This document shows, one piece after another, positions 8,464 to 61,081 of a DNA stretch of 64,000 bases. The position numbers and the translations under genes were made by a program. The stretch is from Vibrio crassostreae. Lineage in GTDB: Bacteria; Pseudomonadota; Gammaproteobacteria; Enterobacterales; Vibrionaceae. Numbering within the stretch: position 1 is the stretch's first letter; every line of letters starts with the position of its first letter. The stretch spans positions 79,129 to 143,128 of the forward strand of contig NZ_AP025479.1 of the NCBI RefSeq assembly GCF_024347415.1. Reading direction: 5' to 3'. The notes beneath the pieces are model-generated. The model saw only the letters and a list, made by a program, of their open reading frames with translations, did no database searches and had not been told where the DNA came from.

Positions 8464-9942
8464 CTAACCCGGAATATTTGCAACCATGCGCAGTGAGGTT
8501 GACAACTCTTCCATTTGTAACCATGGACGTAGGTAAGCAACGGCAGAGTAAGCTCCTGGACGGCCAGCTTGCTCTTCAACAGTTACTTTTGCTTCAACAA
8601 GCGGATGTTTCGCTTTGGCATCATTACCGATTGCATTTGGGTTCACATATTGGTGAATCCAAGTATTCAGCTCGTTTTCAACATCATTTGGATCAAGGTT
8701 TGAACCGATGCGGTCTCGCCCCATCACTTTAAGATATTGAGCAACACGACTACTCGCCATTGTGTATGGCAAACGTGCAGAAATTGCCGCATTGGCTGTC
8801 GCGTCAGGATCAACGTATGTCTTAGGCTTATGAGCCGTTTGTGCGCCCATAAATACCGCGTAGTTAGTATTTTTGTAATGCACAAGCGGTAAGAAACCAA
8901 GATCACTTAGTTCTTTTTCGCGCTCATCAGTCAAGTTAACTTCTGTTGGACACTGCTGAATAAGATCGCCGGCGTTCGTGTAGTGAGTAAAATTAGGTAG
9001 GTTTTGAACTTTACCACCATTTTCGGTACCACGAATCGCTGTACACCAACCGTATTGAGTGTACGATTGAGTCAACAGCAAACCAAAATCGTAAGCTGCA
9101 TTACTCCATACAAAATCAGAATCGTTTTTTACGATCTGCTGACCATTATCACGAGTCTCAAGTTCTTCAAACTCAAACAATTTTACTGGTATCGTTGCTG
9201 CACCGTAAGGCTGACGAGCCATTGTTTTAGGTAGTGTTAACGCAACATAACGTGAATCATCGCTTTCACGGAATGCGTTCCAACTTGCGTATGCAGGAGA
9301 ATCGAAGCCGGCAGCCACGGGTTTACCATCAGCAAAGGTCGCAAAAGAATTGAAGTCAAACATATTTGCGTTTGCTGCTGCAATAAATGGGGCATGCGAT
9401 GCTGAAGCAACTTCACCCATGTAACGCAGTAATGCAACGTCTTCATCGCCATAGCCAAACTCATAGTCGCCGATTAAAGCTCCGTAAGGTTGACCACCTG
9501 CGGTTCCAAATTCTTCTTGGTAGACCATTGTAAAGAAGCGGCTACGATCAATCGCAGGTGCGTCTTCAAACTGTTCTAACAACTCATCTTTAGTGTAATC
9601 AGCCAGTTTGATCTTTAAATCGGGGCCAAGTTCGCTGTTTTTAACCAGCTTCTGTAGGCCAAGCCAAGTCCCTTCCAGCTTTTGGAAGTCACTGTTCTTC
9701 ATGACAGTTGATAGCTGTTTAGAAATCTTGCTATCAATCGCACTAATTGCTTTTTCAATGGTTAACGTCAGGTTGTTATCCCACGTTACCGTACCTTCAA
9801 GTACCTGCGAAGTTAAAATACCAAGCAGCTCTTTGGTTGTATCTACTGGCGTTTGGGCAGTTGCAGTAAGAGCTCGATCTAAAAAGCTAACCGTAGCCGC
9901 ATCAGCACTTGCTTGGTCGAGAGTTTGTTGTTCTGTAGACAT
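8464..9942 (-). CDS. tssC: T6SS contractile sheath large subunit TssC (VipB)
   Basis: 492 aa, normal length for TssC. Together with TssB it forms the contractile sheath whose shortening drives the Hcp tube. Conserved blocks are FQKLEGTWLGLQKLV (about residue 85), FGTAGGQPYGALIGDYEF (about 150), MARQPYGA, and the C-terminal VAYLRPWLQMEELSTSLRMV, which carries the strands that interlock with TssB. Its ATG overlaps the tssB stop codon, as is usual for this pair. It is complete and very likely functional. Confidence 0.96.
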   Translation of the reverse strand: MSTEQQTLDQASADAATVSFLDRALTATAQTPVDTTKELLGILTSQVLEGTVTWDNNLTLTIEKAISAIDSKISKQLSTVMKNSDFQKLEGTWLGLQKLVKNSELGPDLKIKLADYTKDELLEQFEDAPAIDRSRFFTMVYQEEFGTAGGQPYGALIGDYEFGYGDEDVALLRYMGEVASASHAPFIAAANANMFDFNSFATFADGKPVAAGFDSPAYASWNAFRESDDSRYVALTLPKTMARQPYGAATIPVKLFEFEELETRDNGQQIVKNDSDFVWSNAAYDFGLLLTQSYTQYGWCTAIRGTENGGKVQNLPNFTHYTNAGDLIQQCPTEVNLTDEREKELSDLGFLPLVHYKNTNYAVFMGAQTAHKPKTYVDPDATANAAISARLPYTMASSRVAQYLKVMGRDRIGSNLDPNDVENELNTWIHQYVNPNAIGNDAKAKHPLVEAKVTVEEQAGRPGAYSAVAYLRPWLQMEELSTSLRMVANIPG

Positions 9943-10451
9943 TATTCCGCTCCCTCTTTATTCAGACCTAGCTCTTCTGCTAACCCTTGAATAGCGTCAG
10001 TGCTTTGAAGAATTTCTTTCAGTAATTTCTCTAAATCACGAGAACGGTCTGCTTTACTCAGCAAGACCTTTAGTTGATTACGTGTTTCAACAAGCTGTTT
10101 CAACGGGGCGATTTGCTCAACCAGTTTTTCTGGGTGAAAATCTTTCATTGAACGGAAGTTCATGCTCACTTCAAACTGGTTGTTATCATTTGTAAGCTTG
10201 TTGTCAACCTTATATGAAAGCGTTGGATGAATTTGGTCCATTACTGTATCAAAGTTATCTTTATCGACTCCCGTAAACTCGCGTTCTTCCAGTTCAACTT
10301 TTTCCGATTCAGGTTTATGTCCTGAAAAATCGCCAATTACGCCGACAACAAAAGGTAATTCTTTTGTTTCAACTGCGCCATTTGTTTCAACATCATAAGT
10401 AATGCTGACACGGTTTTTGCTAACACGCTTGTGCTGTGAATTTAACGCCAT
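9942..10451 (-). CDS. tssB: T6SS contractile sheath small subunit TssB (VipA)
   Basis: 169 aa, typical for TssB. The N-terminal half shows VSITYDVETNGAVETKELPF and VVGVIGDFSGHKPE, the conserved TssB core. The C-terminal half is an alpha-helical extension of the kind that ClpV recognises in related systems. The last base of its stop codon is the first base of the tssC start, so the two are translationally coupled. It sits 74 bp after hcp. Confidence 0.96.
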   Translation of the reverse strand: MALNSQHKRVSKNRVSITYDVETNGAVETKELPFVVGVIGDFSGHKPESEKVELEEREFTGVDKDNFDTVMDQIHPTLSYKVDNKLTNDNNQFEVSMNFRSMKDFHPEKLVEQIAPLKQLVETRNQLKVLLSKADRSRDLEKLLKEILQSTDAIQGLAEELGLNKEGAE

Positions 10452-10525
10452 ATATTGGGTCCTAGTAGATCGATTAAATACTTACAATTAGGTGCCTTAC
10501 CTAAGGTAAAGCACCTTTCAGTAAA

Positions 10526-11059
10526 TTACTTCGCGCCTGAAGTCATTTTGCCTAGTGGGATGCTGTAGCTAACTAGACCACCAGAAACAAGCTCGCCACC
10601 ATCTTTCTCGTAGTGGTGCTTTTGAGATATCTCCACGTAAGAAAGTGACAGGCTTTCGTGTGGCTGAGAACCGTCAGACCCACTAACGTTGTAAGAAACT
10701 AAACGAGCTTTGTCTAACTTAACTTGGAAGTAAACGTCTGTTCCTTGACCATCACTTTTAGGTTTAGTAAAAGCGATTTCAACTGTCTTACCTTCCTTTC
10801 CTGGGCTGAACAAGTAAGACAACAAGTCTTCAGATGCACCGTCAACTTCTTTAGTTACGTTGACTTCGCTCATGGCTACCATGCCTGAATCAGAGTTATT
10901 TGCGTTACCGATATCCATAGACACGTTACGCACTGCGCCCCATGAATACGATGAAATCGCAAACCAACCATCTTTTTTACTTTCCAGACCTTCAACGTCT
11001 TCAGCTGTTGCGCCACCTGTAACACTTAGGCCTTCAACGCGCATGTAAATACTTGCCAT
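10526..11059 (-). CDS. hcp: T6SS tube protein Hcp (TssD)
   Basis: 177 aa Hcp-family protein. It starts MASIYMRVEGLSVTGGAT and contains GWFAISSYSWGAVR and VYFQVKLDKARLVSYNVSG, all matching the Hcp beta-barrel that stacks into the secreted inner tube. The ending PHESLSLSYVEISQKHHYE is the usual last strand. It is the second gene of the leftward operon, 31 bp after tssA. No fused toxin domain is present, so it is a structural Hcp. Confidence 0.95.
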   Translation of the reverse strand: MASIYMRVEGLSVTGGATAEDVEGLESKKDGWFAISSYSWGAVRNVSMDIGNANNSDSGMVAMSEVNVTKEVDGASEDLLSYLFSPGKEGKTVEIAFTKPKSDGQGTDVYFQVKLDKARLVSYNVSGSDGSQPHESLSLSYVEISQKHHYEKDGGELVSGGLVSYSIPLGKMTSGAK

Positions 11060-11090
11060 AATTTTTCTTTCCTTATTGGTGAAAGGGCCA

Positions 11091-12473
11091 TTACCACTCT
11101 AGAGATGTTTTACTAGAAGGGGCTGGTGCTTCACGCTTTTGTTGTAATTGAGTATCAGCAGGGGATGCCTCTGATACGAACTCTTCAGCTTTCGTTGGTT
11201 GAGCTACTTGCTTTACCGTCGTTGACACTAAAGGCTTTTTAATTGCAGCAATTGGGGCTTCTATGTCCGGCAACAATACCTGATCGAGATGGTTCAGCCC
11301 TACTGCATTAAAAATTTTGCTTTGGCTATCCCCGTCTTGCTCTTCCATCATTTCTTGAAGCAGTTTCGGTAGGGGCAAATATCCCCAGCGGATCGCCTTC
11401 TCCAATAAGAATGAGACTGGGCTATGAGGTTCACTCTGACGAAAATAGTTAGATAATTCACGTAGTTGATGAAACGCGAGGTCGCGATTCATGCGATTTT
11501 TATCGGTGATATCTGAAAGGTTATTAGTACTAATAAGTACATGGGTTTGTTCAGTTACTGTTTGAATTGACACGGGACTTGTCATATGTTGCAAGTCACT
11601 ATTCGCCTCCGAACCCTGCTCAGATGAGGCTATTTGTTGGTTGGGTATCACCGGCTTTTTAGCTTCGTGCTTAATATTGGTTAACTGTTGCAGTGCGTTG
11701 TTCAACTTAGTAAACAAATTTTTCGCAAAACCGAAATTCGGTGGCGTTATACGCGCTTCTTGGCTGTAAATTAACGTTTTTTTTCGGAGTTGCTCTAACG
11801 ACTCCAAACAACAGCTAATATTTGCTAGTTTATCGACAATACGATTATGCTCATGTACAGCAGACCCCGCGACAAGCTGTTTCAACTCACTCACAGTTCC
11901 TTTTTGCTCGGCACTTTGATAGTCAAAAAAAGTTATGTTTCCCACTAATGGCATAAGTAACAAAGGCGCATACAACAAGGTGCTTTGCTCACTGTCACCG
12001 CAAATTTGGAAAAAAGCTTTTACTTTAGCTTCCGTTTGCTCAGCAGCTTTAGCTTGCTCTGACTCTGCTTTCAATTTCGAGTCAGCCAAAACTGGATTTA
12101 ATGATACCCATTGTTGCTCTACCAGTTCAGTGAACCAAGCTAGCGTGTTGGCAGTACTATTAAGAGTAGTATCAAGCAACAGCTGTGAAACAAGAAACCA
12201 ACCTATTAGCTCTATATCACGCGTTGTCTCAATAAAGCAGTGATGTAAGCTCTTGGCCAACGTCGACCAATTCTGGTTATTCTCTTCTAAAAGTTGATCT
12301 AAATCGTCACTACTCGGATTTTGACTGAGCTTACGCAATGATGTTTGAGCAACATTAAATTCATTACGCAAAGGCCTAAACGCACTTTTGTCGTTTTTTA
12401 AGTAGACTCCACATGGCATGTCAGCATGAATTGGAGTGAGCAGTTCTTTATTGTCTTGTGTTAAAAGCAGCAT
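11091..12473 (-). CDS. tssA: TssA/VasJ-family T6SS protein with ImpA N-terminal domain
   Basis: About 460 aa from the preferred ATG at 12473 (MLLLTQDNKELLTPIHADMP). An upstream in-frame ATG at 12527 would add 18 residues that do not look like the family; neither start has a strong ribosome site. The N-terminal ImpA signature is ELLTPIHADMPCGVYLKND, followed by FNVAQTSLRKL. The family caps or primes sheath assembly. The middle (about residues 290-350) is low complexity and the C-terminal 60 residues are Ala/Pro/Lys-rich. The resemblance is to the short VasJ form rather than to TssA with a large C-terminal ring domain. It is the first gene of the leftward T6SS operon. Confidence 0.85.
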   Translation of the reverse strand: MLLLTQDNKELLTPIHADMPCGVYLKNDKSAFRPLRNEFNVAQTSLRKLSQNPSSDDLDQLLEENNQNWSTLAKSLHHCFIETTRDIELIGWFLVSQLLLDTTLNSTANTLAWFTELVEQQWVSLNPVLADSKLKAESEQAKAAEQTEAKVKAFFQICGDSEQSTLLYAPLLLMPLVGNITFFDYQSAEQKGTVSELKQLVAGSAVHEHNRIVDKLANISCCLESLEQLRKKTLIYSQEARITPPNFGFAKNLFTKLNNALQQLTNIKHEAKKPVIPNQQIASSEQGSEANSDLQHMTSPVSIQTVTEQTHVLISTNNLSDITDKNRMNRDLAFHQLRELSNYFRQSEPHSPVSFLLEKAIRWGYLPLPKLLQEMMEEQDGDSQSKIFNAVGLNHLDQVLLPDIEAPIAAIKKPLVSTTVKQVAQPTKAEEFVSEASPADTQLQQKREAPAPSSKTSLEW

Positions 12474-12527
12474 TTTTATCCCAAAGGAGCAAACACTCTC
12501 AAAAGGCCTGAGAGTAAACAAGGTCAT

Positions 12528-12959
12528 TAATTAATATTATTATTATTATTATTTTATTAACAATCGAAATACGAATTTAATTGAACAAACTACATAAAAT
12601 CTAAAACACAGTGAAATACATTCTGACTAGCTCTAACGTAGATTATATTTTAATTATTTAGGATATTTTATTGCAATTTATTCTTCTCATAATTGCCAAT
12701 CCCAATTGTATTCATTCTAATTATATCAATAAAAGGTAGATGATAAAGATGCATTTACGCCTTAAATGGTTGGCTTTTAGGACGAAAAGGTTTTTATAAT
12801 TAATATTTATGTTAATTAGATAACTCTAATATTGTCTGTTATAAAAATCGGAATATTATCGACATTAGATAAAATTTAAATTAATCTATCTTTATAATGC
12901 CTTACCCCAGATCGCCACCATAACCATTAAGTTGCACATTACTGACCAGGCAAATTTGA
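12528..12959. promoter_or_regulatory. AT-rich divergent promoter region between tssA and vgrG
   Basis: A gap of over 400 bp between the two divergently transcribed T6SS arms, with no plausible gene. It is strongly AT-rich and includes an ATT/TTA trinucleotide run at about 12535-12556. Both arms are presumably transcribed from here. AT-rich spacers of this kind are common H-NS targets, but no specific operator could be identified. Confidence 0.5.
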
Positions 12960-14975
12960 TTGAAAAATAGGAATAACACGACAATTATGTCTAATAGTGA
13001 ATTATCATATAGCAACCGTTCTATAGTAATGAAACTTGCTAATAATAAATATGTTGTTTCTAACCTTGAATCAAGCGATACCATTTCCCAAGGAAGCCTC
13101 AGTTTAGCCTCTATCGCCAGCCATAGAGAAATCGCGGCCAGCAACCTAGGCGAGGTGATGCATGTCAGTTACACAAACAACAATAACACTCAAACTTTTC
13201 TTGGTTTAGTGACCAGTATTGAGCTTATTGGTCATAGTGTCGAAAAATCTCTTTTCTACTATATGATAGAAGCACAAGACCCTTTGAGCCTGCTGGCATT
13301 TCGTTGTAATCGAAAAGTCTATCAAGAGATGACCAGTAAACAAATATTGAGTTCTCTATTCGGAGCATCTAGATTTTCTAACTATTTTAGGTTTTCTCTA
13401 AGTAGTTCAGGAAAGAAATATGATTACTGTGTTCAGCTCGATGAAACAGATCTTCAATTCGCTCAACGCTTATTGTCGCAAGAGGGTTGGCATTACCATT
13501 TTGATCACAGTGGAAGTAAACCGATTGTTGTTATAGCAGATTCAAATCAAGCATTTAAAACATGTAGTCAAGATGGGTTAGCTTTTCATCAGTCTGGGCA
13601 GCCCACAGATAACCAATTATCCAACTGGAAACTAAAATCTAAAGTAGGGACAGGGAAACTCACTCTAGCTGACCACTCACAAACGTTAGCAGAAGTTTTT
13701 AATAGCGGAGAGCGTAAAAGTACACATTCGAGTTCTGCATTAACACTCGATTCCTATCAATACGGCCTCGGCTTTGAAAGCAAAAGTGAAATTAGGGATG
13801 CCGCAAAAACCCAAATGGAGGCTCTTGATAGTGGCCGAAATGAAGCATCTGGTAGCACCGCTATTGCTAATCTTTACTGTGGTGGTAAGTTCAAACTCAA
13901 TCGACACCCGGTTTCAAGTTTTAATCAAGACTACGTGATTACTAGCATCACCCATATGGTCTCGGCAGATGAATCAGGCCGGAAAGCCAGTTATGAAAAC
14001 CAATTTTTATGTACCGATCTAAAAAAGGCTTATCGTCCAAGCTTAATAGCAGTATCAACTTGTCAGCACATCCATACTGCTACGGTTTGTGGCCCTAAGA
14101 ACGAAGAGATATATCGCGACAAATTGGGCAGAGTAAAAGTACAATTTCACTGGGATAAGGAAGGGGAAAAAGACGAGAATGCATCCTGTTGGCTACCTGT
14201 TTCACAAGGCTTAGCGAGCAAAGGGTTCGGTTCTCAATTTCTGCCTCGCGTAGGTGATGAAGTCCTGATTCAATATATTGAAGGAAACCCAAACCGGCCA
14301 GTAATTATCGGCTCAATCTACAATAAAGCTAACGCACCAGCCTACTCTTCTGCGACGCAAAGTGGAATCAAAACACGCTCTACGCCGAAAGGAAGCAGTA
14401 AACAAGGCAACGAACTGCGTTTTGAAGATCAAAAAGATAAAGAACACATCTACCTCCATGCAGAAAAAGACCTGCTAATCGATACCAACAATGACTTAAC
14501 GACCACGGTAAAAGGAAAAGTCACGTCTAAAGTCGAGAAAACCATTGATATTGAAGCAAAAGAAAACATCAAACTCGTCACTGAGAAACAGCTAGATGTA
14601 ACCAGTAAAGACAACTTATCCGCTAAAAGTGATAAAAATATCACGCTTGATTCAGGTTCTAATTTAGAAGCTGCGGCGAAGTCGTCGGTCAAAGTAGACG
14701 GCAGTAAAGTATCGATTACTGGCAAAAGCAAAATAGAGCTCAAAGTCGGTGCGAGTAAAATAGAGATCTCGGCTAGTGGTATTAAGATTGATGCGCCACA
14801 AGTTTCCATCTCCGGTAAAGGGAAAGCGGAAATGAAGGCAGCTATGGTTAGTATTGAAGGCCAAGGAAAAACAGATGTTAAAGGTGCACTTGTCACTTTG
14901 AATGGAAGCGCAATGACCCAAGTTAAAGCTGGGGCAATGGTACAAATCCAAGGGGCTATCGCCAAGGTGAACTAA
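12960..14975 (+). CDS. vgrG: T6SS spike protein VgrG (TssI)
   Basis: 671 aa. The N-terminal gp27-like part includes VSYTNNNNTQTFLGLVT and the long base region. The OB/gp5 part includes GRVKVQFHWDKEG, then CWLPVSQGLASKGFG and LPRVGDEVLIQYIEGNPNRP, which is the defining VgrG signature. From about residue 500 to the end is a repetitive Lys/Val/Ile beta-helix needle with no extra domain, so this is a non-evolved VgrG. It is divergent from tssA and its stop overlaps the next start (ATGA), coupling it to the DUF6931-like gene. The start could be the first Met or Met10. Confidence 0.95.
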   Translation: MKNRNNTTIMSNSELSYSNRSIVMKLANNKYVVSNLESSDTISQGSLSLASIASHREIAASNLGEVMHVSYTNNNNTQTFLGLVTSIELIGHSVEKSLFYYMIEAQDPLSLLAFRCNRKVYQEMTSKQILSSLFGASRFSNYFRFSLSSSGKKYDYCVQLDETDLQFAQRLLSQEGWHYHFDHSGSKPIVVIADSNQAFKTCSQDGLAFHQSGQPTDNQLSNWKLKSKVGTGKLTLADHSQTLAEVFNSGERKSTHSSSALTLDSYQYGLGFESKSEIRDAAKTQMEALDSGRNEASGSTAIANLYCGGKFKLNRHPVSSFNQDYVITSITHMVSADESGRKASYENQFLCTDLKKAYRPSLIAVSTCQHIHTATVCGPKNEEIYRDKLGRVKVQFHWDKEGEKDENASCWLPVSQGLASKGFGSQFLPRVGDEVLIQYIEGNPNRPVIIGSIYNKANAPAYSSATQSGIKTRSTPKGSSKQGNELRFEDQKDKEHIYLHAEKDLLIDTNNDLTTTVKGKVTSKVEKTIDIEAKENIKLVTEKQLDVTSKDNLSAKSDKNITLDSGSNLEAAAKSSVKVDGSKVSITGKSKIELKVGASKIEISASGIKIDAPQVSISGKGKAEMKAAMVSIEGQGKTDVKGALVTLNGSAMTQVKAGAMVQIQGAIAKVN

Positions 14976-15562
14976 TGAAATTATTAAAAGTACCGTATGA
15001 TGACGCAGCACAAATTTTATCACTCTTTGAGCCAAGCGCCGAGCTATCGGAGCTGGTCAAAACGCATACTTCTCCATTCGATTTAATTACACATGCCGTT
15101 GAGCAAGAGCTATTTTCTGATGCAGTCACATATCTTGCCCATGCCTTACCTGTCCGTGAATCGGTATGGTGGGCAACATGCTGCGCATCGGCTCGTTCTG
15201 ATTGGAACCCAGTTGAGAATGAAGCGATTCTGTCAGCGAAAGCTTGGGTTCATGTGCCCGATGAAACTAATCGTCGCCAAGCGGAAGACAGTGCAAACAA
15301 TACCGGACTTGATTCAGGTGCAGGCTGGGCAGCTCAAGCCGCTTTTTGGAGTGGTGGCAGTATAACAGCCCCCTCAGATCCAATCGTTCCCCCGCCTCAA
15401 TATTTGTATGCCCAAGCAGTGGCAGGTAGTATCAATCTCACCGCTGTTTTACCTGAAGGTAAACAAGCAAAACAGCGCTACAAACTATTTATCGAAATGG
15501 GTTTAAACATTGCCCAAGGTGGTAATGGGGCTCCTGTAGGTCTACAACCGTTGGAGGCCTAG
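14975..15562 (+). CDS. DUF6931-like protein between VgrG and PAAR
   Basis: 195 aa acidic soluble protein with no signal peptide or membrane segment. The segment VRESVWWATCCASARSDWNP resembles the family now called DUF6931, often found between vgrG and PAAR genes; this name is from memory and not checked. The WW..CC pattern and a Gly/Ala-rich middle (GAGWAAQAAFWSGGSI) are its clearest features. The tight spacing (1-bp overlap with vgrG, PAAR starting immediately after its stop) suggests a job in spike assembly or cargo loading, such as an adaptor. No toxin motif was seen. Confidence 0.65.
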   Translation: MKLLKVPYDDAAQILSLFEPSAELSELVKTHTSPFDLITHAVEQELFSDAVTYLAHALPVRESVWWATCCASARSDWNPVENEAILSAKAWVHVPDETNRRQAEDSANNTGLDSGAGWAAQAAFWSGGSITAPSDPIVPPPQYLYAQAVAGSINLTAVLPEGKQAKQRYKLFIEMGLNIAQGGNGAPVGLQPLEA

Positions 15563-15859
15563 ATGTTACCAGCAGCAAGAGCAACCGACATGCATATGTG
15601 CCCAATGCAGACACCAGCTATTGTCCCCATCCCTCATGTGGGCGGGCCATTACTTCCATTACCCACAACGGTGCTGATAGGTAATTTGCCAGCAGCAACG
15701 CTTGGTCAAATATGTATTTGTGTAGGGCCACCAGACATCGTGGTAAAAGGCAGTGGAACAGTATTAGTTAATAATAAACCAGCGGCAAGGATGGGGGATC
15801 TTACCGCACATGGTGGCACAATAATTATGGGAATGCCAACCGTCTTAATTGGCGGTTAA
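15563..15859 (+). CDS. PAAR-domain spike tip protein
   Basis: 98 aa, essentially a lone PAAR domain that sharpens the VgrG spike. It begins MLPAARATDMHMCPM and contains VGGPLLPLPTTVLIGNLPAA, IVVKGSGTVLVNNKPAARMG and DLTAHGGTIIMGMPTVLIGG, the usual three repeats with Cys/His zinc ligands. No C-terminal toxin is attached, and the DNA after it is IS material, so any linked effector-immunity pair is missing from this locus. It is the last T6SS gene on this arm. Confidence 0.95.
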   Translation: MLPAARATDMHMCPMQTPAIVPIPHVGGPLLPLPTTVLIGNLPAATLGQICICVGPPDIVVKGSGTVLVNNKPAARMGDLTAHGGTIIMGMPTVLIGG

Positions 15860-20296: not shown

Positions 20297-20633
20297 AATT
20301 AATTTCCCATCTCTTAACTAGAACGATTATGTATATTTAAAAATAAGGCCACCGTCTTTAACAGCCCAACCAGGGCGACCACATGAGTGATCAAATTTCA
20401 TCCTCATAACTAAAACCAACGCTTAAGACGGATTCTAACAGATGTATTCATCATGCACTCCAACAATCCTAATTTAATGAGAAATCAAGCATCTTCAATG
20501 ATCACGGGATAAATAAGAGATGAAAAATACCCTCTGCATCGTAAAGTTTAACCTTTGCCTCTAAGCCTATTAATTTTTCTGTACTTACTAATTAAGAACA
20601 ATGGCGTTATGTCTTATCTTTATGGTTTATTTC
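20297..20633. other. Gap with an isolated IS630-type end
   Basis: No gene seen. At about 20467-20512 there is a solitary copy of the left end of the IS630-type elements found at about 45.7 and 48.3 kb (core AATCAAGCATCTTCAATGAT). This suggests an old deletion that left one terminus behind. Confidence 0.55.
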
Positions 20634-20649
20634 ATGACAAATTTGTCAT
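20634..20649. promoter_or_regulatory. CusR/CopR-type operator, perfect palindrome
   Basis: ATGACAAATTTGTCAT is a perfect 16-bp palindrome matching the known CusR box pattern. Reading rightward, TATACT lies 33 nt past it (20683-20688), the same geometry as the other five boxes in this window. The presumed transcript is the short one ending at 20776. Confidence 0.75.
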
Positions 20650-20694
20650 TCTTTGGTCAGGAATAATTCATTATATTTTATTTATACTGGAATC

Positions 20695-20776
20695 CACTGC
20701 TTACTCATATGGGAACATTTGAGGTTTATTCTTTTTCTGTACCATTTATAGCTGAGCATTAGGCTCAGCTTTTTTA
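20695..20776 (+). ncRNA. Candidate copper-inducible small RNA (about 80 nt)
   Basis: A transcript starting about 7 nt after TATACT (20683-20688) would run into a strong intrinsic terminator within about 80 nt. The operator upstream is a perfect CusR-type palindrome. The only frame inside is 17 codons (MGTFEVYSFSVPFIAEH) without a ribosome site, so a noncoding RNA is more likely than a peptide. This is inferred from promoter and terminator geometry only; I know of no matching family. Confidence 0.4.
20750..20776 (+). terminator. Rho-independent terminator
   Basis: Stem AGCTGAGC / GCTCAGCT with a 5-nt loop, followed by a T5-T6 run. No annotated gene precedes it on the plus strand except the short transcript predicted from 20695. 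Confidence 0.85.
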
Positions 20777-20929
20777 TTACCACTACTTAATAAACATTAT
20801 TTCTATCTAATACGAAAAATCTGGTTCGCTCTTTTCACCAAAGAAACAAGTAGTACTGATATGAACTACTAGCAATAGACCTAAGGAAGAAGGCACCAAT
20901 TTTCATATTTGTTGATCTTCCTAGCTTTG

Positions 20930-21740: not shown

Positions 21741-21759
21741 AAGTTAACAGGGATAGGTA

Positions 21760-22238
21760 GGCACTCTCCAAATAATTTTCTGATTGATAAAGCTGATCTG
21801 CTTACTCAGTTGAATTGATAAACCACCAATAGCTGTTGTATTTCTACGAGCAATTTCACCAACGGATTCAAGATGTTCACAGACACGTTCCGCAACGACA
21901 CTTTTCTGACCAGAAGCACTAGCAATTTGAGTATTCATATCAGAAATAATCGACACAGACTCTTCAATCGCCGATAGTGCATCTCCCATAAATCGACCCT
22001 ATTCAACACTGGACAGGGTCTGATTTTTACCATCGTTCATTGTTTGAACAGCATCTTAAATTCCATGTTGTAGTTTTTCAATAATGGTATGTATTTGAGT
22101 TATTGACTCTCGAGTTCGCTGCGCAAGTAGCCTTACTTCATCGGCAACCCGCAGCCATGTCCCCCGCTCTTGCTACCTCAATAGCGGTATTTAAAGCAAG
22201 AAGATTCGTTTACTCTGCGACTTCATAGATAACATTTA
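21760..22238 (-). pseudogene. Remnant of a methyl-accepting chemotaxis protein signalling domain
   Basis: Leftward translation gives NLLALNTAIEVARAGDMAAG, then VADEVRLLAQRTRESITQIH, the highly conserved hairpin tip of MCP cytoplasmic domains. Further on it reads ALSAIEESVSIISDMNTQIA and GEIARRNTTAIGGLSIQLS. Stops lie between the pieces (for example after IEKLQHGI and SVE), and the ligand-binding and membrane parts are absent. The C-terminal end is cut by the IS5 remnant. Only about 160 codons survive, so it is non-functional. Confidence 0.85.
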
Positions 22239-22321
22239 ATTATACATGGAATCGGTAACTAGCTTTCTTTTTCCATCATATTTTTTTGCATTACTTTGTC
22301 GCAACCTTTCTCAGACATCAT

Positions 22322-22650: not shown

Positions 22651-22974
22651 TCAAGCGCTAAATCGACCACCATCATTAGTTTTATGCTCTACCTTTTGCA
22701 CATCTTTCTTATGCTGCTGTTCTTGAGAATCATCCTGATCTGTTGTACTTCCTGGCATCATAAATTTCATCATCACCCCGTGCATGACCAGACATAAAAT
22801 CAGAGGCACAAGTGCGGTACCAAGCAAAGATGGACTAAACGAACTCATGGTTGAGGAGAGAACTAGGAACGGTATTCCGACCATCAGCAAAACACATAGA
22901 AGCATCACCCAACCATGGCCTTTGTGCTTACCGTGTCCCGAATGGCAACTGTGATTTTTATTGTTAGCTTTCAT
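22651..22974 (-). CDS. His-rich two-helix membrane protein (DUF2933-like)
   Basis: 107 aa from the ATG at 22974, chosen because GGAG sits 8 nt upstream; the longer frame begins with a TTG inside that ribosome site. The N-terminus NNKNHSCHSGHGKHKGHGW is a His/Cys-rich metal-binding tail. Two membrane helices follow (about 22-42 and 49-66), and HGVMMKFMMPG adds Met residues. The pattern resembles short DUF2933 proteins of copper-silver islands, not verified. A near-perfect CusR-type box at 23050 lies in its promoter. Confidence 0.65.
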   Translation of the reverse strand: MKANNKNHSCHSGHGKHKGHGWVMLLCVLLMVGIPFLVLSSTMSSFSPSLLGTALVPLILCLVMHGVMMKFMMPGSTTDQDDSQEQQHKKDVQKVEHKTNDGGRFSA

Positions 22975-23049
22975 AACTTTCTCCAAATTACTTACTCTAT
23001 CTAGTGCTGATCTTAGCCTACAGGACCTGTCAGTAATCGGACGGTAATG

Positions 23050-29489: not shown

Positions 29490-29571
29490 TTTTCTGACAG
29501 ATTCTCGTCACTTTCAAAAACTTAGTCTGACACCAATTAGTAAATAAAACGTCAATAAAGAGGTGTTAATA

Positions 29572-30801
29572 ATGAAACTCAAAAAGACAATATTAGTGGT
29601 GTCCGTATTTAGTGCTTTTAATGCGTTAGCTGATTCTGATACTTCCTATTTTGGGTATATTCGTAGTGGTATTGGTATGAGTGGAAACAATGGACAGGAT
29701 GTTCAGTTCCACAAGAACCAATTAGGTCGCTTAGGTAATGAGAATGATACCTATGGCGAATGGGGCATTAAGAATGAGGTATACAATCAAAATGGTGTAT
29801 CTTTCGACGTTGAGTCGATGGCTGCTATTTATACCGATGGTTCTACGGGATGGGAAACCAGCAATGATAAAGATTTCACCGTTGTTCTTCCTCAAATTAA
29901 TGTTCAGGCGAAGGGGATAATCAAGTCCGATCCTGAAGCAACGCTTTGGGCTGGGAAACGTTATTATCAAAGACATAATGTCGATTTGGCGGACTTTTAC
30001 TATTGGAATATTTCTGGAGCAGGTGCTGGTGTTGAAGGCATCCAAACTGAATCAGGCAAACTCTCAGTTGCCTGGATAAGAACAGACCGTGATAAAGTCA
30101 TCGACGAAGGAAGCAAGAGCGGAGTCTTGAACGTCAATGTCTTGGATGCTCGATTGGCAGATATCCCACTTTGGAGAAATGCGTCTTTAGAGGTGGGGGG
30201 AGATTATGCAATCGCTAATGAAAGTAGTAGTTATAAAGGGGATGTGAGAAATGGTTTCTTATTCAATGTAGAGCTAACGCAAAATTTTAGTTTTGGTAAC
30301 AACAAAACGGTTTTCCAGTACGGTACAGAAGGCTACGGTAAAACAATAGCTGACTATGGTGACGGTTCCTGGTATGGGGCTGAAGCTGAGAGCGGAGCAG
30401 CAGCGTACAGAATTATTAACTGGGGGGTTATCCAAATTGCAGATCAATGGGAAATGGGGCATCAGCTAGTCTGGTCATCTTCAACCGATGATATTGATGT
30501 TGGTCAGACAAAAGATATCTCTTATTTTTCTTCCGTTGTGCGCCCGGTTTACAAATGGGACGAGAATATGAAGACCTTGTTTGAAGTAGGATATTTTAAT
30601 AGAAATGTAGGCGACGGCTCCGCAGAGTCAGGGAGTAAAATTACAGTGGCTCAAGCTTGGACCGCGGGTTTAAGTTATTGGGCAAGACCAGAAATCCGTT
30701 TGTATGCCAGTCATTTTACCGACTTCGATAATACGGATGCTTTAGGACCAGGAAAAGACAGTGAATTTAATTTAGGTGTACAAGCTGAGGTTTGGTGGTA
30801 A
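29572..30801 (+). CDS. LamB-like outer-membrane carbohydrate porin
   Basis: About 409 aa from the ATG at 29572, preceded by AGAGGTG. A signal peptide (KTILVVSVFSAFNALA|DSD) is followed by FGYIRSGIGMSGNNGQDVQF, the usual maltoporin N-terminal strand with its early loop. Later come DATLWAGKRYYQRHNVDLAD-type residues (here EATLWAGKRYYQRHN) and a C-terminus ending LGVQAEVWW with the terminal aromatic that outer-membrane proteins need. The family forms 18-stranded sugar channels. Finding it here, behind a CusR-type site and a strong terminator, is unusual; a role in copper or ligand traffic is speculative. Confidence 0.88.
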   Translation: MKLKKTILVVSVFSAFNALADSDTSYFGYIRSGIGMSGNNGQDVQFHKNQLGRLGNENDTYGEWGIKNEVYNQNGVSFDVESMAAIYTDGSTGWETSNDKDFTVVLPQINVQAKGIIKSDPEATLWAGKRYYQRHNVDLADFYYWNISGAGAGVEGIQTESGKLSVAWIRTDRDKVIDEGSKSGVLNVNVLDARLADIPLWRNASLEVGGDYAIANESSSYKGDVRNGFLFNVELTQNFSFGNNKTVFQYGTEGYGKTIADYGDGSWYGAEAESGAAAYRIINWGVIQIADQWEMGHQLVWSSSTDDIDVGQTKDISYFSSVVRPVYKWDENMKTLFEVGYFNRNVGDGSAESGSKITVAQAWTAGLSYWARPEIRLYASHFTDFDNTDALGPGKDSEFNLGVQAEVWW

Positions 30802-30969: not shown

Positions 30970-30985
30970 ATGGCATTATTGTCAT
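30970..30985. promoter_or_regulatory. CusR-type operator of a lost gene
   Basis: ATGGCATTATTGTCAT, followed by TTTTTTTGGTCAGG and TATACT at 31020-31025. The stretch TTGTCAT-(Y)TTTGGTCAGG and the final TTTATACTG are shared with the site at 20634. Its downstream gene is cut off by the MITE-like insertion at 31093. Confidence 0.6.
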
Positions 30986-31092
30986 TTTTTTGGTCAGGCG
31001 AAGTTCAGGTGTGGCTCTTTATACTGACACTGTTCCTAGTTTACTGATGATAAAAAAGTACATCGACGTAATCGTATTTTTCATTCACTCTT

Positions 31093-31245
31093 GGGCTTTG
31101 TTGCGTAAAAGAATCATCTACTTCAACAGTTGCCTATCAAACAGTGAAAGGCTTATTGCTTGGAAGATAACTGAAGCGTCATTAGAGTTTTATTCTGAAT
31201 CCACATGTGGTTTCTGCGTAAACTCACTATATACGCAACAAGGCC
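31093..31245. mobile_element. MITE-like 153-bp element with IS903-type ends
   Basis: Starts GGGCTTTGTTGCGTAA and ends with the reverse complement of GGCCTTGTTGCGTATA. The termini match IS903-like IS5 elements but there is no transposase between them. It lies just after the orphan CusR-type promoter. Confidence 0.6.
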
Positions 31246-39766: not shown

Positions 39767-40144
39767 TTATCGATTACTATCACGCTCCGTGTAGTGTACT
39801 TTAATATTAACCTTACCCACGTATTCCAATTCACCATTTTCATTCATTTGCTCTTGTACTGTTACAAAGCCGGCATCCTCTAAATGTGTGCTTTTTGAAT
39901 ACGTGTTAAACATTAAAATGCGGAGTCCATTATTGAGTTCTTGCGCTGACATAGTTTTTAGGCGCTGCAGCTCAGATAATCCTAGTTGATAGGCTTCATC
40001 TGACGTAGTCGCTGGAGCCACAGGGACAGTTTTTGAATCTACGCGGCTGATATAATTACCACCATTATACGACGGTTGTGCGAATACAGGTACAGATGCC
40101 AGTGAGATTATAGAAGCAATAAGAGCTATTTTGATTGTATTCAT
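39767..40144 (-). CDS. DUF3316 family secreted protein
   Basis: 125 aa from the ATG at 40144, chosen because it begins a clean signal peptide (MNTIKIALIASIISLASVPV, cut near FAQ|PSY); the longer frame adds a hydrophilic leader. The mature part (LQRLKTMSAQELNNGLRILM and TYSKSTHLEDAGFVTVQEQ) fits DUF3316, a family mainly found in Vibrionaceae and of unknown function. It has a CusR-type box upstream (40220), so it is probably induced by copper. Confidence 0.8.
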   Translation of the reverse strand: MNTIKIALIASIISLASVPVFAQPSYNGGNYISRVDSKTVPVAPATTSDEAYQLGLSELQRLKTMSAQELNNGLRILMFNTYSKSTHLEDAGFVTVQEQMNENGELEYVGKVNIKVHYTERDSNR

Positions 40145-40219
40145 ATTTTTATCCTCAGAGTCATGATTTTCAACATTGCTATTATTGAACACTCCTGCTG
40201 ACATTCTTCTTTCTGAACA

Positions 40220-40235
40220 ATGACTTTTTTGTCAT
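40220..40235. promoter_or_regulatory. CusR-type operator upstream of the DUF3316 gene
   Basis: ATGACTTTTTTGTCAT with one imperfect centre; on the minus strand AATAAT lies 33 nt past it. Confidence 0.65.
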
Positions 40236-40349
40236 AAACGTGGCTTTGTAAAATAATCATTGGTTTATCTCAAAGCCTTTGAGAGCAAAAAACTGAGTTT
40301 ATATTCAGCATAAAATGAATAAGAAACGAAAAAACCTGACCAAGCCCGT

Positions 40350-41690
40350 TTATGCCTCACCCTTTTTCATTGTCAGAGTAAACTCAGTGACTCTTTCACT
40401 GGAAGACACCGTGATTTCACCACCATGCATCTGAACAATAGAGCGGGTAATGGCTAACCCAAGCCCCGCGCCAATACTTCTGCTATGTTTCCTAGACTTG
40501 TCGGCTCGATAGAAGCGGTCAAACAGGTAGGCTAAAGCACTTTCTGGGATTGTCTCCCCAATATTTTTTATCTTGATAGAATTGTATTCTTCACCTTCTT
40601 CTGCAATCTGTATGGATACCACAGAACCAACATCACAATGCCTCAGCGCATTAGAAACAATATTACCAACGGCACGTTGCAGCATCTGTTTATCACAAAA
40701 CTGCTCACCATCTCCACGTAACTCTAAACAAACTTCCTTTTCGTCAGCCATAAATTCATAGAATTCAAGCAGTGGCCTAATAACTTCTGCTAATTGAAGC
40801 ATATCTTTATTAGTGTGAAGTAAATGATTTTCTGACTTAGCCAGGTAAAGTGTATCTTGAATAGTCTTGTTCAGCCTTTCCAACTCCTCCACATTGGAAA
40901 GGAGTATTTCCTCATATTCCTCCGCTGTTCTTTTGGAAGATAAAGAGACATGAGTCTGGGTCATAATGTTAGTCAAGGGAGTTCGGATTTCGTGTGCAAT
41001 ATCGGAAGAAAACTCACTCAACCGACTAAATCCATGCTGTAAGCGACCGAACATTTCATTTTGTGTTTCAACAAGTTGTATCAAATCTATAGGCAGTTTA
41101 TCAACCGGGATTCTGATATCCAACCGATTAGGGCTAACTTTATTCATATACTGCTGTAAAACGCGCAGAGGCTTTAGGCCTTTGTGAACAATAAATACTG
41201 CATAGCCCCCTGATATCACGCTCGCAATGACAAATGTCCACAAAAGAACAATATTAAATTGACTAATAAATAAGAGATGGAGGTCGATATTGAGCCCAAG
41301 CACAATAGCGTCGTATTGTGGATGTTTTAACTGAAACCGGAAAGCGCGATATGTTTGTCCATCGACCGTCCATTCCATCGAGTTTAGCTTTTTTGCACTC
41401 TCGGGCAGAGAGAACGTCGTGTTTGTTAACACAGGCATGCCATCCCGATCTAATACCCAAAGGTAAGCTGATTCAGCCTTTAACGCTGTAATAGCGTTAT
41501 CATTTAAACTATCAAACGAAGAAAAAATCGTCTGGTAATAATTATCGAGGCGTTTGTAATCTTGCTGATAAAAATGTTGTTTAATTGAATACTGAACAAT
41601 TAAGGCAAATGAAGCAAGGACGATAAATGAAGACGCCATGTACATGACAATAAGCTTAGTTGCCATTGAATTTTTAAGTTTCAGCTTCAT
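40350..41690 (-). CDS. cusS: CusS-like sensor histidine kinase
   Basis: 446 aa inner-membrane kinase. TM1 about residues 13-33, a short periplasmic sensor loop of roughly 100 residues, TM2 at about 142-165 ([16 protein letters not shown]), a HAMP linker, HisKA with [20 protein letters not shown] containing the phosphorylated His, and HATPase with NALRHCD, ENIGE-type N box and GAGLGLAI. The sensor loop is short on Met and His compared with CusS, so the inducer is inferred from the regulon. It overlaps the response regulator gene by 4 bp. Confidence 0.88.
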
Positions 41691-42370
41691 TCTAGAGAAT
41701 CATCGAGTTTATAGCCCATCCCACGCACCGTATGAATTAATTTAACCTCATAGGGTTTATCAATTTTAGCTCGCAATCTTTTGACCGCCACATCAATAAC
41801 ATTAGTGTCACTATCAAAATTCATGTCCCATATCAAAGAGGAGATAAGTGAACGCGATAGAACTTCGCCACGTCTTTGTAGAAAGAGTTCTAACAAAGAG
41901 AACTCTTTGGCGGTCAGGACGATCGCGTCACCGCCTCTGTGACCTGTTCGTTTCAAAAGATCCAGAGATAAATCAGCGACAACTAAGGTCGCATCATTCT
42001 TCACCTGCCCGTTTTGGTGTCTTAACGCATTTTTGACCCGAGCAAGCAATTCAACAAAAGCAAAAGGTTTAACGACATAATCATTCGCTCCCAACTCCAG
42101 TCCCTTAACCCTGTCTTCAACCTGATCTTTCGCAGAAAGCATAATGATTGGCGTATCTAATTGGCTACTTCGCATTGTTTGTAGCACTTGCCAACCATTT
42201 AACTTTGGAAGCATGATATCTAATATGATGAGATCATAATGATTGGTGGTCGCCTGATAGAGTCCATCGACGCCGTCATAAGCAAGATCAACAACGTAGC
42301 CTGATTCTGTAAATCCCTTTTTTAAGTAACTGCCTGTTTTAGGCTCATCTTCAACAATTAATAACTTCAT
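41687..42370 (-). CDS. cusR: CusR-like OmpR-family response regulator
   Basis: 227 aa. The receiver domain has [18 protein letters not shown], the phospho-acceptor Asp in [20 protein letters not shown] and the conserved Lys in YVVKPFAF. The C-terminal winged helix ends [20 protein letters not shown], the OmpR/PhoB signature. Sequence style ([14 protein letters not shown]) is close to CusR/CopR. It is the likely protein binding the ATGACA-TGTCAT boxes in this window, an inference from known CusR sites. Confidence 0.88.
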
Positions 42371-43197: not shown

Positions 43198-44538
43198 TTA
43201 AAATCCGACATTGAGCATAGCAACAATTTTGTATGTATCCTCGGAACTTTCTTGATAGAAATCCCCCATAAAACCGTATGAACCTCGTAAACTCAAGTCA
43301 TATATACCAACAAATTTTTTGCCAAACTGTGCGGACAATTCAGCACCAAGACTCGAACCATTCGCCTGTGAAACACTCTGAGGGTCGTCGTCAGCCACTC
43401 TGAAGTAACCAGCCCCATACTTAATATAGTAGTCATTTTCTAGCATCTGATCACCAGAGAGCATCAACCCCAACAAGCCGTACCCTTGGTAAGCGGCATC
43501 ATAAACTGCCTTACCGCCTTGCGAGCCATTGTTGTAGTAAGAATCGGTTCCAAATATCATCAAGTTACTACTGTAGAGCTCATACCCTGAATTATTTTCA
43601 GCAAAACGATCTGTACCATTCCTGCTGTCGTCTGCAGGAATATAGATACCGTGTAATTTAATATTACCGTCATTCCAATGTTTTTTAGCATAGAGATTTA
43701 ACATGAATGCTTCGCCATCAGAAGCATTCGAGTCCATTCCCGACGCAATCTTATAGAAAACAGAACCGCTATAATCCATGTCACCATAAGAGAAGTCGAT
43801 GTAGGACCCGAGATAAATATCATCCGTTCGAGCAGCTGTGCCATTAAGGGCATCTTCGTTCCTGTTGTTGATTGAGCCTCCAGTAAAACCGTAACTGAGA
43901 TCATCGTTAGGGTTTAACTCACTATTCAACACATAAAAGTCTACGTCATCTGATGAATCTCTTTCTCCTTCATCCCATTTAAACCAACCCCCGCTCAGGC
44001 TGAGCATGCCTATACTGCCCAAAAACGATATGCCATTCATGTCATCATCAGTAACAAAACTCTCATATTTGCTAAAACCATACCCTTGAATGCCTGTTCG
44101 CACTTTCCAGTCCGTATTCGGTAGTCTAAAATCAACGTAAGCGTTTTTTGTTTCAATACCAACGCCGTCAGAACTGAGTTTGCCACCTGAACCAGCAACA
44201 GTCTTACTCCCTTTTTCACCAAAGGGAGCATCGTACTCACCGTACCAAACCACAGTAACATTTTCATGTAGGTTGCCGGTGACCTTCACGCGCAGACGTT
44301 GATCAACCCAAGTGCTACTATCATCGTCAGTTTCATCGAGGCTTTCCGCCGTGCTTTGCATGCGATAATAACCATTAAGCCTGATAGCAGATTGGTCATT
44401 TTTTAGTTTAGCTACTTCTGCGGTCAGATGTTCAATTTCTCCCTTCAAACCATCTACAGATGGTGAAGCGACATCAGCTAGTGCCGGTGCTGTAATTAGT
44501 AGCACTACCAAAGGGACTGTCATTTTTTTTTCAATCAT
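43198..44538 (-). CDS. Outer-membrane beta-barrel porin-like protein
   Basis: 446 aa with a signal peptide (MTVPLVVLLITAPALA|DVA), a short coiled coil (LKGEIEHLTAEVAKLKND), then alternating beta strands rich in Asp, Gly and aromatic residues, ending with a terminal Phe (AMLNVGF), as outer-membrane barrels do. I do not recognise the exact family. It stands alone with its own strong terminator. A CusR-type site lies about 360 bp upstream in the right orientation, which would give a 5' leader of about 300 nt. Confidence 0.75.
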   Translation of the reverse strand: MIEKKMTVPLVVLLITAPALADVASPSVDGLKGEIEHLTAEVAKLKNDQSAIRLNGYYRMQSTAESLDETDDDSSTWVDQRLRVKVTGNLHENVTVVWYGEYDAPFGEKGSKTVAGSGGKLSSDGVGIETKNAYVDFRLPNTDWKVRTGIQGYGFSKYESFVTDDDMNGISFLGSIGMLSLSGGWFKWDEGERDSSDDVDFYVLNSELNPNDDLSYGFTGGSINNRNEDALNGTAARTDDIYLGSYIDFSYGDMDYSGSVFYKIASGMDSNASDGEAFMLNLYAKKHWNDGNIKLHGIYIPADDSRNGTDRFAENNSGYELYSSNLMIFGTDSYYNNGSQGGKAVYDAAYQGYGLLGLMLSGDQMLENDYYIKYGAGYFRVADDDPQSVSQANGSSLGAELSAQFGKKFVGIYDLSLRGSYGFMGDFYQESSEDTYKIVAMLNVGF

Positions 44539-45036
44539 TTATGCAATTTCCTTATGTCGCCGAAACTTGAAAAAAAACTATTGATTTTCATATGATTTTC
44601 GACATTCCTCCCCCCCTCTCTGCTATAGAAATAGAGGGATCATTTAATTGCATGCCAGTACTAACAGAGCCACGAATAAGACAAAGAAAAATACACCATA
44701 TAATATTATGGTATCGCCCCAGTCAACAGAGTTAAAATACTGGCAAAGCAATATCACGTTGCTTTCTACTCAAAAATAATTAATCAGACAAGGCTTCTTA
44801 ATTTTTCTAACTATGCATGTTTTTTAATAGGTAATCGTTCATCTAATTTATATAAAGGAGATAATAATAATTCACCCATGTCATAAAAATGACTTAAAAA
44901 TGACATTTATGTCATTTATGTTTTCAGAACAGGGATAAATATAGAAAATAGTGATACAAGCATTTCATTGCGGTAGGAGAATATTTATAAATTTGATATT
45001 AATAAAAGCAATGTTAGGGTTAAAAATTAAAAGGTT
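44539..45036. other. Upstream region of the porin; AT-rich
   Basis: No gene seen. It holds the CusR-type box at 44900-44915 and its -10-like TATTAT, and a long untranslated stretch before the porin start. The right part borders the IS630 remnant. Confidence 0.5.
44900..44915. promoter_or_regulatory. CusR-type operator upstream of the porin
   Basis: ATGACATTTATGTCAT, nearly palindromic. On the minus strand TATTAT lies 33 nt past it. A second half-site pair (ATGTCAT AAAA ATGACTT) is adjacent at about 44878-44895. Confidence 0.65.
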
Positions 45037-60891: not shown

Positions 60892-61081
60892 AACCGCCAG
60901 CTGTGAAGCTGGTATGGCGTACTTGCCCCTACTCTACGCGACGCCACCCCAAGTCAAGCTGACCGACGCATTACCCGTCAACTGACGGATGCGTTGGCCT
61001 TGGTTGATATCCGAGTACTGGACCACTTTGTGGTGTCTTTTGAAGATGTGGTGTCGTTTGCGGAGCGTGGTTGGATATAAC

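Follow-up and report, generated by a model that had tools for sequence, protein, structure and literature searches.

What would a copper-responsive promoter specify when the next element downstream is a terminator and no gene lies between them? The 64,000-nucleotide stretch of Vibrio DNA analysed here (the window) contains a copper island with a candidate for such a locus at positions 20634-20776, referred to below as unit 1. The initial annotation proposed a candidate copper-inducible small RNA (sRNA) on the basis of a perfect CusR-type palindrome, the hexamer TATACT 33 nt from it, a strong intrinsic terminator, all within 143 bp, and a 17-codon frame as the only reading frame, lacking a ribosome site; all of these are present. 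This observation is correct and understated; in intact islands the unit is one of three. The sRNA interpretation of unit 1 is well supported at the level of sequence. We consider it probable that 20634-20776 specifies an sRNA that is activated by CusR and acts by base pairing, probably with Hfq, and that a mobile island carries three such RNAs. Analysis of the sequence establishes the parts of the unit, its promoter geometry, its conservation, the lack of a conserved frame and the existence of sibling units. The parts of unit 1 are:

20634..20649, plus strand: CusR box ATGACAAATTTGTCAT, a perfect palindrome, the same one as in the E. coli K-12 cusR-cusC box ATGACAATTTTGTCAT
20650..20661, plus strand: conserved motif TCTTTGGTCAGG, directly 3' of the box
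20683..20688, plus strand: -10 hexamer TATACT, with 33 nt between box and hexamer
20695..20776, plus strand: predicted small RNA of about 80 nt, its start placed from the -10 and its end from the terminator
20704..20723, plus strand: hairpin CUCA-U-AUG-GGAA-CAU-U-UGAG with a GNAA loop, from predicted folds
20725..20749, plus strand: U-rich linker, the least conserved part (19/25 identical)
20750..20776, plus strand: intrinsic terminator, from sequence and terminator scan

The arrangement of box and -10 was compared across 41 perfect boxes: 3 from the window, 5 from the related island of Vibrio sp. dhg, 5 from that of a Vibrio genome designated G230 (both described below), 1 from E. coli K-12 and 27 from 20 further Vibrio cusR loci in 19 genomes, one of these loci being a second one in G230, so that the box samples are not independent. 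TA-type hexamers (at least 4/6 matches, with A at position 2 and T at position 6), counted on both sides of each box at offsets 15 to 59, occur 7, 24 and 16 times at offsets 32, 33 and 34 (47 over the 41 boxes), against a mean of 1.9 and a largest count of 7 at the other offsets. A looser rule (4/6, better side and offset), which some boxes would satisfy by chance, finds a -10-like hexamer at 32-34 nt for 41/41 boxes; E. coli cusC has TAAAGT at 33 nt. A -10-like hexamer 32-34 nt off the box is the usual layout of a CusR promoter, and the TATACT of unit 1, at 33 nt, fits it. A sigma-70 promoter scan of the window listed none at unit 1, as expected for a promoter without a -35. The motif behind the box is TTTGGTCAGG or TTTCAGTCAG in the units; TCTTTGGTCAGG of unit 1 resembles TTTTCTGTCACCGG behind the E. 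coli box and is possibly a third CusR half-site.

In the 5.8-Mb genome the palindrome core ATGACANNNNTGTCAT is found 3 times, always within the copper island on a 143-kb contig (C4), and its reversed control once; the box followed by N5 and GGTCAGG, with no mismatch, occurs 3 times in 227 Vibrio genomes (1 in the window, 2 in G230). A cusR homologue (E <= 1e-60) is present in 53 of the 227 genomes (56 matches), and 20 of these loci, mostly the closest ones, were compared. Intergenic boxes with at most one mismatch at the 20 loci mostly have a protein frame about 45-120 nt off on the promoter side; a few one-mismatch boxes sit within genes, and two are ambiguous (L165 1407, with one mismatch, and L159 11042). 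A box with a -10 at 32-34 nt and a terminator but no gene was found at none of these 20 loci, and in a genome whose CusR is 87% identical (G068) there are two boxes, both gene-bearing, while units 1, 2 and 3 are all absent.

Unit 1 has the palindrome ATGACANNNNTGTCAT, the -10 distance and CusR/CusS in the same island as marks of a CusR promoter. The regulatory genes, and a further perfect box, are:

41687..42370, minus strand: CusR response regulator, the presumed activator, 137/226 residues identical to E. coli CusR
40350..41690, minus strand: CusS sensor kinase, with the CusS sensor domain PF21085
23050..23065, minus strand: perfect CusR box, gene-bearing, in front of an ORF at 22651-22986

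CusR of the island is 60.6% identical to its E. coli homologue (62/99 residues in the DNA-binding part), and a 22-residue C-terminal stretch, which we take to hold the recognition helix of OmpR-type regulators, is nearly unchanged. Other products of the island are a CusCBA-type pump that includes a CusF domain, a P-type ATPase carrying HMA domains, a MerR regulator, and a LamB-type, maltoporin-like porin (29563-30801), whose gene is flanked in dhg and G230 by unit 3 on one side and unit 2 on the other. Several boxes are associated with genes. The ORF at 22651-22986 (minus strand; 111 aa, TTG start, His-rich start, membrane-spanning by look, no Pfam match) has a counterpart at the same place in dhg and G230, and a clearly similar ORF, compared by eye, lies behind a box at L171. 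A DUF3316 protein gene (39767-40204) has a CusR-type box at 40220 with one mismatch, perfect in dhg and G230, and a 446-aa porin-like gene without Pfam match has one about 360 nt upstream, perfect in the window and with one mismatch in dhg and G230. The long 5' leader of the latter gene is strongly conserved (window 44525-44920, minus strand; L031 9400-9790; L054 10998-11390) and is possibly a regulated leader; a fourth unit considered before this gene was dropped, as the window does not preserve the terminator-like stem of that unit. To the left of the island, and separated from it by transposase genes, are type VI secretion genes (9942-15859; VipA, Hcp, ImpA, VgrG-like, PAAR), and a group II intron (RF00029, E 2.2e-11) is located at 60838-60937.

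The initial annotation had suggested looking for homologues beside copper islands, and these exist. A blastn search of 72,556 plasmids returned one nearly full-length relative of unit 1 (98% of the query), on plasmid NZ_CP028945.1 of Vibrio sp. dhg, and a search of the 227 Vibrio genomes, in which 3 first-look candidates per genome were scored, found full-length unit 1 in the window's own genome and G230 only, in the latter on a chromosome-sized contig, within a copper island. Each of the two islands carries three units. In both, unit 1 is intergenic, with a porin-like gene on one side and a convergent gene for a chemoreceptor on the other, and the neighbour genes are open.

This setting bears on the possibility that the locus is an orphaned CusR promoter that lost its gene by deletion and met a terminator by chance. 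The window does contain IS remnants around unit 1, as well as a chemoreceptor gene with a large internal deletion; only two blocks of the chemoreceptor remnant (21759-22315, minus strand) match G230 (L054 10214-9681 and 8078-8001), so that about 1.6 kb of the region is missing, and IS-like sequence (by look) separates the unit 1 block (20509-20922) from the remnant, which starts at 21759. However, the same layout, with hairpin and RNA 5' end conserved, is found in two islands with intact neighbours, and two further units share it. The same unit is thus intergenic between intact neighbours in dhg and G230 and is not the stump of a deleted gene, the outcome that the initial annotation had named as the refutation of its proposal; we regard an orphaned promoter as very unlikely. 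The retention of intergenic position, box, -10, hairpin and terminator in both islands, where the frame is not kept, supports the sRNA reading instead. A 59-nt stretch 3' of the unit (20822-20880) matches an IS30 transposase annotation in many plasmids and is also found at the same place in dhg and G230; matches to this flank in Vibrio, Photobacterium and Shewanella were rejected as copies of the unit, since they overlap IS30 transposase annotations in most records.

The transcript predicted for unit 1 would start at about 20694-20696, as judged from the -10, and with the position of the terminator would be about 80 nt long. The terminator has the stem-loop AGCTGAGC-ATTAG-GCTCAGCT at 20750-20770, with a T run that reaches 20775. 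The fold z score is -2.7 for the window RNA and -3.1 for the dhg orthologue, and the same two hairpins are predicted in all three copies (window, dhg and G230), with G, A or U as the N of the GNAA loop. Centroid folds predicted for the window and dhg RNAs leave the 5' end unpaired, and the sequence of this end is identical in 3/3 copies, a sample of three sequences. The U-rich linker is a possible Hfq site, and the linker and U tail together suggest Hfq dependence. With its own promoter, an intrinsic terminator and no gene, unit 1 has, at the level of sequence, the features of an sRNA.

The 5' end, hairpin and terminator (20695-20724 and 20750-20776) are identical at 56/57 positions between the window and either dhg or G230, and the sole change is the N of the GNAA tetraloop; the figure given above for the linker also holds against either relative. 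Identity (dhg and G230, respectively) is 28/33 and 29/33 in the stretch from box to -10, 65/74 and 64/74 in the 74 nt upstream of the box, and 32/35 and 30/35 in the 35 nt 3' of the terminator. At four-fold sites, identity is 89% in copA, 68-75% in lamB and 79% in the 446-aa gene; for cusR (72%) and cusS (63%) the comparison is with dhg only. The RNA of unit 1 is the best conserved part, with the flanks close behind, so its excess conservation is modest; shortly before the presumed RNA start there is a 1-nt indel. Three orthologues of unit 1 are known, and because dhg and G230 are close (316/327 identical) they provide at most about two independent comparisons.

Could the conserved RNA encode a copper-induced micropeptide? 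There is a 17-codon ATG frame in unit 1 (MGTFEVYSFSVPFIAEH, its longest) and a 20-codon ATG frame in unit 3 of dhg. Against this, the unit 1 frame has 17, 13 and 13 codons in window, dhg and G230, respectively, with differing C-termini and no ribosome site; a 1-nt indel accounts for the shorter frame and other C-terminus in both relatives. In the window the frame extends into the terminator stem, no Shine-Dalgarno was found in the 15 nt upstream of it, and no ORF of at least 60 aa lies between 20296 and 21265. The unit 3 frame has only 6 codons in G230, and no listed ATG frame of unit 2 is common to G230 and dhg. By sequence comparison the reading frame of unit 1 is not conserved, and we think a micropeptide highly improbable.

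In the intact islands of dhg and G230, unit 2, recognized among the other boxes, follows lamB, and unit 3, revealed by covariance models, is located between cusS and lamB. Both combine a perfect box and a GTCAG motif with a -10 at 33 nt, and both contain a U-rich stretch as well as a terminator. The terminators of the dhg and G230 units have the form GCYGAG..CUCRGC, at 99-120 nt behind the box; over 7 aligned unit copies, 3/8 stem pairs change on both sides and 56/56 cells pair. For units 2 and 3, the 5' hairpins predicted in dhg are not those predicted in G230, so the terminator is the only shared covarying structure. Cross-unit comparisons (6 pairs, 300 shuffles each) found the promoter behind the box to be related in 6/6 pairs (0 shuffles as good) and the terminator in 4/6 (0-1 shuffles as good), the two pairs with the shortened dhg unit 2 giving 19 and 60. 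The bodies of units 2 and 3 are related to each other (2 and 0 shuffles as good), and these units have in common a second kind of 5' end, unlike that of unit 1. The body of unit 1 has no detectable relation to those of units 2 and 3 (36, 113, 104 and 68 of 300 shuffles as good); unit 1 therefore shares only promoter and terminator type with them. Only unit 1 is whole in the window, where its siblings are represented by:

30970..31093, plus strand: unit 2, truncated, with one mismatch in the 12-base core of the box, and the 5' part of the RNA
40278..40334, minus strand: remains of unit 3 behind cusS, linker and decayed terminator only

Unit 2 of the window has TATACT at 31020-31025, a -10 at 34 nt; homology to G230 ends at 31093, before the terminator, with IS-like sequence beyond, and the truncated unit has no fold signal (z 0.6). 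Unit 3 of the window lacks promoter and hairpin through a deletion between two T6 tracts.

The positions of the units raise another explanation, namely that each makes a short transcript that is mainly cis-acting: the transcript, or its read-through, would oppose a convergent gene (the chemoreceptor gene at unit 1, a small convergent ORF at unit 2), or, in unit 3, be a prematurely terminated lamB leader. In dhg and G230 the chemoreceptor gene does have its 3' end towards unit 1, and at unit 2 there is an overlap between the terminator and the 3' end of the convergent ORF; unit 3 is upstream of lamB and in the same direction. However, unit 1 has a strong terminator and stops about 385-390 nt short of the chemoreceptor gene, it is retained in the window though most of that gene is deleted, and the RNA 5' end and hairpin are conserved. 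We regard cis action as unlikely, if the most plausible of the alternatives. It is also conceivable that the boxes are decoys that titrate CusR, with the transcripts as by-products, as six boxes (at most one mismatch) are found per 20-kb stretch of the dhg and G230 islands. A decoy would not need a conserved -10, a hairpin, a GNAA loop or a covarying terminator, and of all the explanations considered we give this one the least credence. Free-standing sRNA units are our preferred reading.

Covariance models R1 and R3 found no further convincing member in 329 Vibrionaceae genomes (13 genera), nor did R3 in 355 genomes sampled from the order (110 genera), a sample that includes some of the same Vibrio genomes; these wide searches used stricter filters and scored, in each genome, only the top 8 or 9 first-look candidates, and may therefore overlook diverged members. 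With R3, 55/329 genomes had matches at E <= 0.05, the best outside the window's genome (G000) and G230 having E 6.1e-4. Seven inspected R3 loci (L103, 104, 105, 106, 108, 111 and 113) were rejected, with no box of fewer than 3 mismatches nearby; several are porin gene 3' ends. An R1 match in G172 (E 0.0024) was likewise set aside, since it corresponds to a porin gene 3' end whose terminator is similar. No exact 31-mer of the unit was found in viral contigs and no exact 19-mer in a genome contig collection, phages gave only a 43-nt match at E 2e-3, and a search of E. coli for the unit found none; some collections may leave out records close to the window's own genome. A gapped promoter signature had 8 matches in the genome contig collection, all in MAGs of other phyla or classes. 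Unit 1 has no Rfam match, and units 2 and 3 of G230 matched only SorY (E 0.4, 20.1 bits against a gathering score of 111).

A mechanism can be proposed from this organization. CusR, phosphorylated via the island's own cusRS in response to periplasmic copper, would bind the palindrome of unit 1 and activate its promoter, which lacks a -35. The free-standing transcription unit 20634-20776 would then yield an untranslated RNA of about 80 nt. This RNA would begin with an unpaired 5' end, AUCCACUGCUUACU, continue through a hairpin with a GNAA loop and a U-rich linker, and finish in a terminator with U tail, an arrangement that sRNAs of the Hfq-dependent, base-pairing kind have. This RNA would most likely act in trans, its conserved 5' end pairing with mRNAs during copper stress; mRNAs for envelope proteins are a first guess as targets, and repression under copper is likewise a guess. 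We infer the transcription of unit 1, its dependence on copper and CusR, Hfq binding, action in trans and targets from these features.

Searches for pairing partners yielded no reliable target. The 12-nt wobble complement of the 5' end was found 24 times in G000 and 12 times in G230, counting the unit itself once in each genome, and the reversed control of the pattern 41 and 45 times (86 against 36). Among the 30 of the 36 places examined by eye, none is a start-codon site in both genomes. G000 has two perfect non-self sites: the first falls within a 233-aa frame (L205), and the second is intergenic (L176) and precedes an ABC transporter ATPase by about 140-255 nt, a distance that varies with the start assumed for the gene. 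No such site is present in G230. Duplex energies were calculated for 70 pairs, with the starts of 10 island genes from each host; 12 mononucleotide shuffles per pair give rough z scores. The best duplex, of unit 3 with a 107-aa ORF in G230 (z -5.0), falls outside the best 22 in dhg, and that of unit 1 with lamB (z -3.3 in G230, -3.0 in dhg) falls outside the best 22 for the window. Such scores with island genes are weak or not repeated, and we find them unconvincing.

OmrA/OmrB and MicF are enterobacterial envelope sRNAs activated by the response regulator OmpR. The units resemble them in that a stress-responsive two-component system would control short sRNAs with a terminator, sometimes as siblings; they differ in that the regulator would be CusR, the genes lie on a copper island (on a plasmid and on a chromosome-sized contig) and there is no Rfam match. 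The E. coli CusR promoter has the same box and promoter geometry as the units. As far as the excerpted text goes, the table of E. coli CusR targets gives cusRS/cusCFBA, and in the presence of acetyl phosphate CusR had over 10 targets (a legend gives nine high peaks), none described there as an sRNA (PMC8249747); excerpts of two other papers describe CusR sites in front of genes (PMC10920338, PMC11195947). Knockdown of the sRNA SabS of Acinetobacter baumannii is reported in excerpt to raise copper sensitivity, a similar link to copper tolerance, but SabS is driven by the ECF sigma factor SigAb and not by a copper-sensing two-component system (PMC12153292). Caulobacter has copper-responsive sRNAs, among them ChvR under ChvGI and one sRNA in the regulon of UzcRS, a metal-responsive two-component system (PMC8224329), and Cupriavidus metallidurans has candidate sRNAs (PMC7563307); sRNA levels or start sites under copper are reported for these organisms, and the excerpts describe neither the Caulobacter nor the Cupriavidus sRNAs as CusR-box units (PMC8224329, PMC7563307). 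The initial annotation knew of no CusR-controlled sRNA in the literature, and none is described among the matches listed from open-access literature, a source in which subscription journals are mostly not covered.

Copper islands are usually studied for their pumps and chaperones. A three-member copper sRNA set on a mobile island, which promoter statistics, conservation and layout together suggest, is the bolder reading of our data; it would comprise two sRNAs with related 5' ends and one that is different. That mobile Vibrio copper islands carry such a CusR-activated set of their own, and with it reprogram host chromosomal, probably envelope, mRNAs each time copper is encountered, is a proposal that in our estimate could equally well hold or fail. 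The three sequences and the one promoter type are ready probes for a direct test. A CusR-driven sRNA set on a copper island would add a post-transcriptional arm to copper resistance; it would also suggest that resistance elements moved horizontally can include RNA regulators that act in trans on the host, so that, if the proposal is true, a metal-resistance element would bring a post-transcriptional regulon together with its pumps.
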